In this document: positions 60,338 through 63,822 of the stretch, one piece after another
Layout of the letters: each line of letters opens with the position of its first letter
Numbering within the stretch: position 1 is the stretch's first letter
Assembly: GCF_037120705.1 (NCBI RefSeq)
Contig: NZ_JAWLJU010000002.1
Span: forward strand, 1,612,001-1,676,000
Source of the DNA: Pseudoalteromonas sp. UG3-2
GTDB lineage: Bacteria; Pseudomonadota; Gammaproteobacteria; Enterobacterales; Alteromonadaceae
Length of the DNA stretch: 64,000 nt
Direction of reading: 5' to 3'
The notes under the pieces: generated by a model
Databases searched by the model: none
Seen by the model: the letters and a program-made list of their open reading frames with translations, nothing else
Told to the model about the DNA's origin: nothing
Position numbers and translations under genes: made by a program

Positions 60338-60380
60338 CTTTTTTGCTCCAAAGTTAGAATGTGAATATTGACGGCCGCGA

Positions 60381-60386
60381 ATTATA
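60381..60386 (-). promoter_or_regulatory. Probable -10 element of ndk
   Basis: A perfect TATAAT on the minus strand 44 bp upstream of the ndk ATG, in GCGCG-TATAAT-TCGCGG context. No good -35 at 16-18 bp. Confidence 0.5.
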
Positions 60387-60477
60387 CGCGCTTTGGTAGA
60401 AAAAACCTACTATCTAACGCAGTTTCTTATCCAAGAAATACAACTTAGCGTTATTTCGCATCGCCTTCGCTTCGCTC

Positions 60478-61755
60478 ACCTTAAAAGATCCCGGCGTAAA
60501 GCCGGTCCTACAAGGACCAGTGAAAGGTGTAGGCGCGATTTTATATCGCGCTAAGAGACCCCGGCATAAAGCCTGTCCCACTAAGGAGCTTTAGGTTGAG
60601 ATATCACTGCGGTATACATCCGCGGCGACATAACTCGTCACCCTGAACTTGATTCAGGGTCCATTGGGTCGCGGAATAAATCCGCTGCTACGGGTTCGGT
60701 GGGGTTATTGAGCTCAGTGTTTTGAGCACACGCACTATGCCGTAGCAGCGATTTTATATCGCGATTGTTTTTATGATCTTATATCGTGATGGTTTTGCAT
60801 GGGCTCCGGATCAAGTCCGGAGTGACGGGCTTTGATAGTGATAGGTACGCTAAAAGATCCCGGCATAAAGCCAATCCCAGTAAGGAGCTTTAGGTTGAGA
60901 TATCACTGCGGTATACATCCGCGGCGACATAATTCGTCACCCTGAACTGGATTCAGGGTCTATTGGGTCGCGGAATAAATCCGCTGCTACAAAATGCGTC
61001 ACCCTGAACTGGATTCAGGGTCTATTGGGGTCGCGGAATAAATCCGCTGCTACATAATTCGTCACCCTCAACTGGATTCAGGGTCCATTGGGTCGCGGAA
61101 TAAATCCGCTGCTACAAAATGCGTCACCCTGAACTGGATTCAGGGTCCATTGGGGTCGCGGAATAAATCCGCTGCTACGGGTTCGGTGGGGTTATTGAGT
61201 TCAGTGTTTTGCGCACACGCACTATGCCGTAGCAGCGATTTTATATCGCGATTGTTTTCATGATTGTACACGCGATAAAAAGGTATCGATGTCGTTGCAA
61301 TGGTTTTATATGGATTCCGGATCAAGTCCGGAATGACGGCCTTCGGTAGGCGCGATTTTATATCGCGCTAAGAGATCCCGGCATAAAGCCTGTCCCACTA
61401 AGGAGCTTTAGGTTGAGATATCACTGCGGTATACATCCGCGGCGACAAAATGCGTCACCCTGAACTGGATTCAGGGTCTATTGGGGTCGCGGAATAAATC
61501 CGCTGCTACGGGTTCGGTGGTGATATTGAGAACGGTGCTTCAAACAAATGCACTATGTCGTAGCAGCGATTTTATATCGCGATTGTTTTCATGATTTTAT
61601 ATCGCGATTGTTTTTATGATCTTATATCGCGATGGTTTTTATAATCTTATACCGTGATGGTTTTGCATGGGCTCCGGATCAAGTCCGGAGTGACGGGATT
61701 TGGTAGGCGCGATTTTATATCGCGCTAAGAAATCCCGGCGTAAGCCGGTGCGACA
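60478..61755. repeat. Palindromic repeat mosaic, cluster 5
   Basis: The largest cluster, about 1.28 kb, in the divergent gap between ndk and trhP. Modules are in the orientation of cluster 4. Compound elements 'CGCGGAATAAATCCGCTGCT - about 50 nt - GTAGCAGCGATTTTATATCG' lie at 60670-60766, 61157-61253 and 61488-61584. A longer block (starting GATCCCGGCATAAAGCC or variants and including CACTGCGGTATACATCCGC) recurs near 60550, 60850 and 61375. The tandem 62-bp array is listed separately. Promoters of the flanking genes are outside the block. Confidence 0.92.
60935..61184. repeat. Tandem array of four 62-63 bp two-hairpin units
   Basis: Starts at 60935, 60997, 61060 and 61122 (CGTCACCCTGAACTGG...). 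Each unit has a CCCTGAACTGGATTCAGGG hairpin and a GCGGAATAAATCCGC hairpin, joined by TCTATTGGG or TCCATTGGG. Copy differences include CCCTCAACTGG in the third unit. Clear tandem amplification of an existing two-module segment. Confidence 0.93.
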
Positions 61756-61784
61756 AAGGGATAAGCGTGTGGCGGTGCGAAATG

Positions 61785-61826
61785 CTGATCTAAATCAAAA
61801 TTTGTTGCTGGTCATTCTTCTATACT
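61785..61826 (+). promoter_or_regulatory. FNR-type box and -10 element upstream of trhP-yfhL
   Basis: CTGATCTAAATCAA (61785-61798) matches the FNR consensus TTGAT-N4-ATCAA at 9 of 10 defined positions. A -10 TATACT lies at 61821-61826. If transcription starts about 7 nt after the -10, the box is centred at -41.5, the spacing of class II FNR-activated promoters, and no good -35 is present, as expected for an activator-dependent promoter. Confidence 0.7.
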
Positions 61827-61888
61827 GCGCCGCTTTTAATAATCACTCAGCAGCTGACCCGTAATCAGTTCAATGTATGAGGTAAACC

Positions 61889-63250
61889 ATGTTTGTACCA
61901 GAACTTCTTTCTCCTGCCGGTAGTTTAAAAAATATGCGTTATGCATTTGCCTACGGTGCCGATGCCGTGTATGCCGGACAACCCCGTTATAGCCTGCGTG
62001 TACGCAATAATGAATTTGACTTGGCCACACTTGAGCTTGGCATCAACGAAGCCCATCAGCAAAACAAAAAGTTTTACGTGGTATCCAATATCGCGCCCCA
62101 TAACGGTAAAGTAAAAACGTACTTACGTGATATTGAACCGGTTATTGCAATGGGGCCTGATGCCCTAATCATGTCCGATCCTGGCCTAATTATGCTGGTA
62201 CGGGAAAAATGGCCAGATATGCCGATCCACCTTTCAGTGCAAGCCAATGCCGTGAACTATGCCGCGGTGCAATTTTGGGCCAAACAAGGCATTGAACGAG
62301 TGATTTTATCTCGCGAGCTATCACTGCAAGAGATTGAAGAAATTCGCACCTTATGCCCCGACACTGAACTTGAAGTGTTTGTACATGGTGCACTGTGCAT
62401 GGCCTACTCCGGCCGCTGTTTATTATCTGGCTACATTAACAAGCGCGACCCCAACCAGGGCACTTGCACCAATGCCTGCCGTTGGAGTTATGACGTAAAA
62501 CCAGGTCAAGAAACCGCTACAGGCGACGTGGTGCATAAAGTCGACCCGAAAGCGATTATTCCAACTTTAGGGGAAGGCCAGCCCACCGATGAAGTATTTA
62601 TGCTCGAAGAGCAAGGTCGCCCTGGTGAATACATGCCCGCTTTTGAAGATGAACATGGCACTTACATCATGAACTCAAAAGACTTGCGCGCAGTTCAATA
62701 CGTTGACCAGCTCACGCGCATGGGTGTGCACAGTCTAAAAATTGAAGGCCGTACCAAGTCATTTTACTACGTTGCCCGCACTGCACAAGTCTATCGCAAA
62801 GCCATTGATGATGCCGTTGCCGGTAAGCCGTTTGATCCTAGCTTAATGAAAACACTAGAGAACCTGGCTCACCGTGGTTACACCGAGGGCTTTTTAAAGC
62901 GCCACGCCCATCAGGATTACCAAAATTACGAGTATGGCCACTCCATTTCCGAACAGCAGCAATTTGTCGGCGAGGTGCTCGGTCGTAACAGCAATGGCTT
63001 GGTTGAAATTGATGTAAAAAATAAGTTCTGTACTGGGCATAGCCTCGAGCTTATGACACCCAAAGGAAACATTCAATTTAACCTCGAACACATGGAAAAT
63101 AAAAAAGGTGAAACCATTAATGATGCCAAGGGATCAGGCCATATTGTGCAAATCCCATTGCCGCAAGAGATCGATCTTGAACATGCCATTTTAATGCGTA
63201 ACTTAGGTGACCATGAGGATACCCGTAACCCTCATAAAAAGGTGTCGTAA
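61889..63250 (+). CDS. trhP: TrhP (YegQ), tRNA U34 5-hydroxylation protein
   Basis: U32 peptidase-family protein that makes 5-hydroxyuridine at tRNA position 34 by the prephenate-dependent, oxygen-independent route. 453 residues, closely matching E. coli YegQ (PELLSPAGSLKNMRYAFAYG, HLSVQANAVN, FVHGALCMAYSGRC). The Fe-S cysteines appear in CMAYSGRC, CTNACRW. Relatives RlhA, UbiU and UbiV are less similar. AGG-containing ribosome site upstream; the stop overlaps the yfhL start by one base (TAATG). Confidence 0.95.
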   Translation: MFVPELLSPAGSLKNMRYAFAYGADAVYAGQPRYSLRVRNNEFDLATLELGINEAHQQNKKFYVVSNIAPHNGKVKTYLRDIEPVIAMGPDALIMSDPGLIMLVREKWPDMPIHLSVQANAVNYAAVQFWAKQGIERVILSRELSLQEIEEIRTLCPDTELEVFVHGALCMAYSGRCLLSGYINKRDPNQGTCTNACRWSYDVKPGQETATGDVVHKVDPKAIIPTLGEGQPTDEVFMLEEQGRPGEYMPAFEDEHGTYIMNSKDLRAVQYVDQLTRMGVHSLKIEGRTKSFYYVARTAQVYRKAIDDAVAGKPFDPSLMKTLENLAHRGYTEGFLKRHAHQDYQNYEYGHSISEQQQFVGEVLGRNSNGLVEIDVKNKFCTGHSLELMTPKGNIQFNLEHMENKKGETINDAKGSGHIVQIPLPQEIDLEHAILMRNLGDHEDTRNPHKKVS

Positions 63251-63498
63251 TGGCGCTATTGATCAACGATAAATGCATTAATTGTGATATGTGCGACCCA
63301 GAGTGCCCTAATCAGGCCATTTATATGGGTGACAAGATTTATCAAATCGACCCAGATAAATGCACCGAATGCGTGGGTCACTATGATAATCCAACCTGCG
63401 TTAGCGTTTGCCCAATTGATTGCATTAAACCCGATCCGGATCATCGCGAGAGCTTAGATCAACTGGCAGAAAAATACCTCAGCCTCACCGAGGGCTAA
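63250..63498 (+). CDS. yfhL: YfhL-like 4Fe-4S ferredoxin
   Basis: 82 residues with two cluster motifs: CINCDMCDPECP and CTECVGHYDNPTCVSVCPIDC, the Allochromatium-type 2[4Fe-4S] fold with its insertion in the second motif. Overlaps trhP by one base, so coupled; the arrangement suggests it is the electron donor for TrhP. In E. coli yfhL and yegQ are unlinked. Confidence 0.93.
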   Translation: MALLINDKCINCDMCDPECPNQAIYMGDKIYQIDPDKCTECVGHYDNPTCVSVCPIDCIKPDPDHRESLDQLAEKYLSLTEG

Positions 63499-63822
63499 CT
63501 AAACTGTTAATGACCACAGCCGAGTAATTACTATTTTTACACGGCTGTGGTTGGCCATATTACGCCCCATTTTCCTTGCCTATTTTGCAACAAAGCAAGA
63601 TCAGCCATTTTCATCATCTTCGAGTCGAAATTTCACCCAAATAGGCTACAGTTAAAGCTATTAGTCAGTGGCTTGCTGTAAGTACTGCAGCTAGGTGTTA
63701 CGCCACTATGACTTTAAGCTTGCTCAAGGTAAGAGACTCAACCTGACACTCGCACTCTCTGCTTTCGAACAAGACCGCTTAGTAAAGCAAAATGGTATGA
63801 TTATTTTGTGTAAGGACATAAC
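63499..63822. other. Intergenic region after yfhL with an inverted repeat
   Basis: 324 bp. A perfect 10-bp inverted repeat ACCACAGCCG/CGGCTGTGGT (63513-63522, 63542-63551) with a 19-nt loop lies just after yfhL and may end transcription, though no U tract follows. The rest holds no gene I can support; the promoter of the next gene must lie here. Confidence 0.45.

Follow-up and report, generated by a model that had tools for sequence, protein, structure and literature searches.

Does Pseudoalteromonas place an oxygen-independent tRNA modification under the control of an oxygen sensor? The question is raised by the trhP-yfhL locus of Pseudoalteromonas sp. UG3-2 (genome G000, complete in two contigs), which lies in a stretch of 64,000 nucleotides referred to here as the window (G000:C2:1612001-1676000). 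Judging from the promoter sequence and its counterparts in related genomes, we consider it very probable that an FNR-activated class II promoter drives the trhP-yfhL operon and that FNR turns on both genes at low oxygen.

The trhP-yfhL locus and its predicted promoter

The first gene, trhP (61889-63250, forward strand), encodes a prephenate-dependent tRNA U34 hydroxylase of 453 aa with U32 and U32_C domains. It matches NF011996 at equivalog level (821 bits, cut-off 534) and falls below the cut-off of the UbiU profile (193 bits against 440). The start of yfhL (63250-63498, forward strand) overlaps the trhP stop by one base (63250); its product is a 4Fe-4S dicluster ferredoxin of 82 aa, again an equivalog-level match (NF033683, 139 bits, cut-off 86). 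TrhP itself carries a [4Fe-4S] cluster (PMC11138216). G000 encodes both TrhP and TrhO, resembling the dual hydroxylation by these enzymes described in E. coli (Sakai 2019, PMC6599085). There, TrhO uses O2 and a trhP mutant deprived of O2 forms very little product (PMC6599085). The same work describes the two E. coli routes as redundant and the TrhP route as indifferent to oxygen (PMC6599085), and 'oxygen-independent' is thus not to be read as 'anaerobic only'.

Upstream of trhP lies the FNR-type box CTGATCTAAATCAA (61785-61798, forward strand), with one mismatch to TTGAT-N4-ATCAA. Its centre (61791.5) is 29.5 bp from the first base of the -10 hexamer TATACT (61821-61826, forward strand), which follows the box after 22 nt and has no matching -35. 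Taking the -10 as the only basis, the transcription start was predicted at 61833, 12 bases past the first base of the hexamer. Relative to this predicted start the box spans -48 to -35 and is centred at -41.5. A G+C-rich discriminator, GCGCCGC (61827-61833), reaches the predicted start, and the predicted 5' leader (61834-61888), likewise placed from the -10, contains a GAGG-type ribosome-binding stretch (ATGAGGTAAACC). The end of the box is 90 nt from the trhP start codon. A first-pass annotation of this DNA had described the same one-mismatch box at 29.5 bp from TATACT, a predicted centre at -41.5 and no good -35. The distance between the two elements is confirmed, the start placed here gives the same centre, and a simple sigma-70 scan of 61700-63700 finds no -35/-10 pair.

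By eye, a G+C-rich discriminator (GCGCCGC or GCCGCGC) trails the trhP -10 in many Pseudoalteromonas relatives, and in E. coli GCCCGCCC follows the -10-like hexamers of both trhP and yfhL. Such discriminators are a mark of promoters controlled by growth rate or ppGpp. The 1.4 kb between ndk and the trhP box (60338-61784) are rich in repeats (GATTTTATATCGCG, GGATCAAGTCCGGA, GATTCAGGGTC), which recur at approximately 7.1-7.6, 12.6-13.2, 42.5-43.3 and 49.8-50.0 kb of the window.

The arrangement is like that of E. coli class II promoters activated by FNR in its type of box, predicted position at -41.5, want of a good -35 and canonical FNR. Of the 23 FNR-activated promoters of E. coli whose start is known, 19 carry their site at -41.5 +/- 4 (PMC3688515). 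At low oxygen, FNR would hold a [4Fe-4S] cluster and dimerise, and we infer that the dimer binds the box at -41.5 and there compensates for the missing -35. RNA polymerase would then transcribe TrhP and its ferredoxin YfhL, presumably on a single message. With the oxygen-using TrhO unable to work, TrhP would supply ho5U34, from which cmo5U34 is made, through the prephenate-dependent route. Switching on TrhP and its ferredoxin at low oxygen would make sense because TrhO uses O2 and the TrhP route does not need it.

A box at -48 to -35, which reaches into the space of a -35 element, might also be thought to shut trhP at low oxygen, with FNR as a repressor covering the -35 region. We regard this as very improbable. 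The scanned region offers no -35 to block, and sites at the class II position usually activate (PMC3688515). Moreover, repression of TrhP without oxygen would leave the tRNA unmodified, TrhO needing O2 (PMC6599085), yet all 147 genomes sampled from the family keep TrhP or TrhO. Activation of trhP-yfhL is therefore retained as the likely direction of control. Opposite control of trhO by FNR is not indicated, as the 212 nt upstream of trhO in G000 contain no box, even at two mismatches.

Conservation of the box upstream of trhP

From the window or a single genome alone, the trhP box is unremarkable. The window contains six one-mismatch sites against a shuffle mean of 2.42, and 4 of 100 shuffles reach six. 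The strict pattern TGATN4RTCAA-N21/22-TANNNT occurs six times in the G000 genome and three times for a reversed control. Three of the six places are inside ORFs, and the others are trhP, L268 (no ORF of at least 90 aa on its strand within 900 nt downstream) and L273 (a long ORF downstream). Exact TTGAT-N4-ATCAA sites number 10 in G000 against 2 for the reversed control. By our reading 8 of these lie inside ORFs of at least 80 aa, the exceptions being L004 and L265. At L265 (1001-1014; G000:C2:3035041-3035054) the exact box TTGATAAAAATCAA is found some 100 nt ahead of the probable start of a gene that by eye resembles those for ribosome hibernation factors, and is without a -10 at class II spacing. 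At L004 (1440-1540, minus strand) the exact box (TTGATTGAGATCAA) precedes by some 48 nt a small regulator gene, itself followed by a cytochrome bd-type oxidase gene (both genes named by eye).

When an FNR regulon was sought by pattern in G000, the motif could not be validated on classical targets. The region upstream of fnr is without a box even at two mismatches, ccoN has only a two-mismatch site and uspE a one-mismatch site. No strong classical FNR target with a box is thus shown in G000, which counts against the FNR reading. Single-genome counts so near to chance would also suit an ordinary constitutive promoter beside a chance FNR-like palindrome.

Conservation at orthologues, in contrast, is far beyond chance. 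Eighty named trhP loci were collected, of which 58 are titled Pseudoalteromonas and 22 from other genera were set aside; gene starts at some loci are the start of the protein match and may fall a few codons inside the gene. The pattern NTGAYN4RTCAA was found within 450 nt at 57 of the 58 Pseudoalteromonas loci, all but L053 (30 shuffles: mean 0.53, maximum 3). A box with up to two mismatches followed 21 or 22 nt later by a -10-like hexamer was present at 56 of the 58 (shuffle mean 0.90, maximum 3; best permuted half-site 9). The box begins anywhere from 92 to 432 nt ahead of the start codon, but its distance to the -10 is 21-22 nt in nearly all. Single Pseudoalteromonas sites are nevertheless imperfect at the opening base of the left half-site, where T has mostly given way to A, C or G: it is kept in only 5 of the 57 boxes, and the exact TTGAT-N4-ATCAA occurs at 3 of the 58 loci.

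Two further sets from the genus, which share part of their genomes with the other genus loci, gave 29 of 30 (L005-L034) and 15 of 17 (L337-L353) with a box. The single miss in the former, L012, lies behind a tandem trhP copy; those in the latter are G107 and G102. A tandem duplication of trhP is also seen at G045:C1:4049372-4051845, where the front copy matches residues 1-358 only. Together with L053 (P. luteoviolacea B; L053/G028), G107 and G102 lack the box upstream of trhP, and in L053 and G107 the -10 reads TATAAT.

Among the 22 set-aside loci of other genera, six contain the box pattern (L084, L089, L096, L101, L102, L106). The family was sampled as 147 genomes of the GTDB family, 92 of them with TrhP (E 1e-120), and all 88 TrhP loci outside Pseudoalteromonas were scanned over 300 nt. 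Exact boxes were found at 21 of the 88 and boxes within one mismatch at 54 (shuffle means 0 and 1.80), while 39 combine a box of up to two mismatches with the -10 geometry (shuffle mean 1.73). The best permuted half-site reached 5, for the one-mismatch and for the geometry criterion alike. Either a one-mismatch box or box-plus-geometry is present at 69 of 88 loci and in 33 of 41 genera, a combination that has no shuffle of its own; the remaining 8 genera have neither within 300 nt upstream of trhP. The first-pass annotation had proposed a scan upstream of orthologous trhP genes as its check, and had named a box not conserved in relatives as an outcome that would refute it. That outcome did not occur, the box being present at 57 of 58 loci in Pseudoalteromonas and at 54 of 88 elsewhere in the family (up to one mismatch), and the geometry it had predicted around -41.5 recurs as a spacing peak of 21-22 nt in both.

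Outside the family, a Moritella-like family (f2; L102 is Moritella) has the box at 6 of 6 loci, all with a -10 at 22 nt. The remaining sampled families of the order have a box within one mismatch at 7 of 62 loci against 1.15 in shuffles, and three exact boxes among these match Motilimonas loci; at the other 55 no one-mismatch box was found. Unlike the Pseudoalteromonas genes, trhP and yfhL of E. coli K-12 have no box within two mismatches in the 400 nt upstream. The proposed box control is accordingly lineage-specific, missing in E. coli K-12 and rare (7/62) in the remaining families of the order besides f2.

Four genomes (G358, G398, G455, G472) have no TrhO match and no one-mismatch box within 300 nt of trhP, with only 164 nt of upstream sequence in G398 and a one-mismatch site at -413 in G472. 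A loss of the box following loss of TrhO was considered and rejected: G429, from the same genus as three of the four, has TrhO and is without the box, and lineage explains the pattern equally.

Displaced yfhL genes

The strongest test, and one that goes beyond the checks first proposed, comes from genomes in which yfhL is not directly behind trhP (gap above 400 nt or elsewhere). On recount this holds for 39 of the 105 genomes of the genus that have a YfhL match. The regions upstream of 38 of these genes were scanned, G078 being left out. Exact boxes were found at 28 of 38, boxes within one mismatch at 34, and boxes followed by a -10 after 21-22 nt at 32, against shuffle means of 0, 1.17 and 1.33, respectively. 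The best permuted half-site reached 6 for the one-mismatch box and 5 with the -10. The exact boxes are surrounded by 27 distinct 60-mers, and as the genomes are related the counts do not represent 38 independent events.

The presence of the box varies with the distance of yfhL from trhP. It was found at 5 of 8 displaced genes on the same strand within 2.5 kb of trhP, and at 29 of 30 of those further off or on another contig. The misses are G035 and G065 (less than 500 nt from trhP), G080 (about 1.2 kb, with a two-mismatch site) and G049 (a draft with 9% contamination). In G035, G065 and G080 one transcript with trhP is possible.

Because FNR-type boxes stand at both trhP and yfhL when the two are parted, their products would appear to belong to one low-oxygen pathway, and boxes at both genes after separation would be hard to explain otherwise. 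The link between TrhP and its ferredoxin, put forward at the outset, is stronger than had been claimed, with 34 of 38 displaced yfhL genes having a box of their own. Moreover, the only 3 of 108 genus genomes without a YfhL match also have no intact TrhP: G003 and G090 have no TrhP match, and TrhP of G061 is without its middle. The association (Fisher p 5e-5, which ignores descent) is not perfect, as G046 and G071 have a split trhP and keep yfhL.

Against this background, a constitutive promoter with a chance palindrome is scarcely credible. Although L053, G107 and G102 live without the box, the explanation would have to account for conservation with fixed spacing, for the spread of the box (or of box-plus-geometry) over 33 of 41 genera and for the separate boxes at displaced yfhL.

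FNR and a proposed choice between two routes

FNR was found in 108 of 108 Pseudoalteromonas genomes and in 137 of 147 family genomes (E 1e-40). The G000 protein scores 439 bits against NF008365 (cut-off 228), and residues 5-242 of its 244 align with the solved FNR 5cvr/5e44. It keeps CTISC-NN-CSISQLC and the SMVC cysteine (cluster ligands) as well as the helix LTVETISR (recognition helix), as in 5cvr/5e44. The 10 family genomes without an FNR match are also without TrhP (92/137 against 0/10 with TrhP; Fisher p 3e-5, which ignores descent). Recounting five FNR matches of 36-40% as FNR-less gives 89/132 against 3/15 (p 5e-4). TrhO is present in 143 of the 147 genomes and the four without it have TrhP. 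In genus g108 (G373:C10:19347-21569, G439:C42:78700-80940) an FNR-like gene follows trhP on the same strand after about 250-350 nt, and its product has 36-37% identity to G000 FNR.

Another regulator of the CRP/FNR superfamily could read the box, be it a CRP or a YeiL-like protein (L258), in which case the signal would not be oxygen. The left half-site is GTGAT, and so half CRP-like, in 5 of the 57 Pseudoalteromonas boxes, and G000 does encode the YeiL-like protein. CRP prefers a TCAC right half-site, its site being TGTGA-N6-TCACA. The right half-site is TCAA in all 57 boxes, as the search pattern demands, and 28 of the 38 displaced yfhL boxes are the exact FNR consensus; a CRP-type site is not what is found at trhP. 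Five PF00027 matches occur in G000 (FNR, a 152-aa protein, the YeiL-like protein and two frames above 600 aa), and only FNR passes the PF13545 cut-off (Crp-type helix), so that no CRP was found among these profile matches. The YeiL-like protein itself reaches 28.9 bits against NF007707 (cut-off 180) and has no Pfam match to a Crp-type helix-turn-helix. Reading by another regulator is consequently unlikely, and FNR is preferred as the protein acting at the box.

A close parallel is ubiUV (yhbUV) of E. coli, which encodes U32-family hydroxylases that work without oxygen in parallel to oxygen-using enzymes and are under FNR control there (PMC10470549); yhbUV is a direct FNR target in E. coli (PMC3688515). 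The two systems differ in that the substrate of the E. coli enzymes is a ubiquinone precursor and that of TrhP is tRNA uridine 34. A term search of the main text of the E. coli FNR ChIP study (PMC3688515) finds neither yegQ nor yfhL, and one of the main text of Sakai 2019 (PMC6599085) finds neither FNR nor YfhL. The UbiUV paper names TrhP once, as a family relative (PMC10470549). Among the matches listed from the open-licence PubMed Central literature (titles, abstract starts and passages), no description of FNR control of trhP or yfhL was found. Class II promoters activated by FNR are familiar, as are U32 hydroxylases under its control; what is new is the target, the link to tRNA decoding and the argument from yfhL.

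More broadly, we lean towards a reading in which, across the Alteromonadaceae (in the GTDB sense) and the Moritella-like family, FNR at the promoter chooses between the TrhO and TrhP routes. YfhL would serve TrhP as a dedicated partner and would have remained in one FNR regulon with it even where the genes have separated. If true, iron-sulphur proteins would make up the whole system, from the oxygen sensor to the enzyme and its ferredoxin, and the trhP-yfhL pathway may be among the main reasons why Pseudoalteromonas keeps FNR. Decoding capacity would be tied to oxygen by transcription of a tRNA-modifying enzyme, which would help to explain two redundant routes to one modification and would give the orphan ferredoxin YfhL a testable role. 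Taken with UbiUV, the parallel suggests a rule whereby failure of an oxygen-using enzyme is met by switching on its oxygen-free U32 counterpart.
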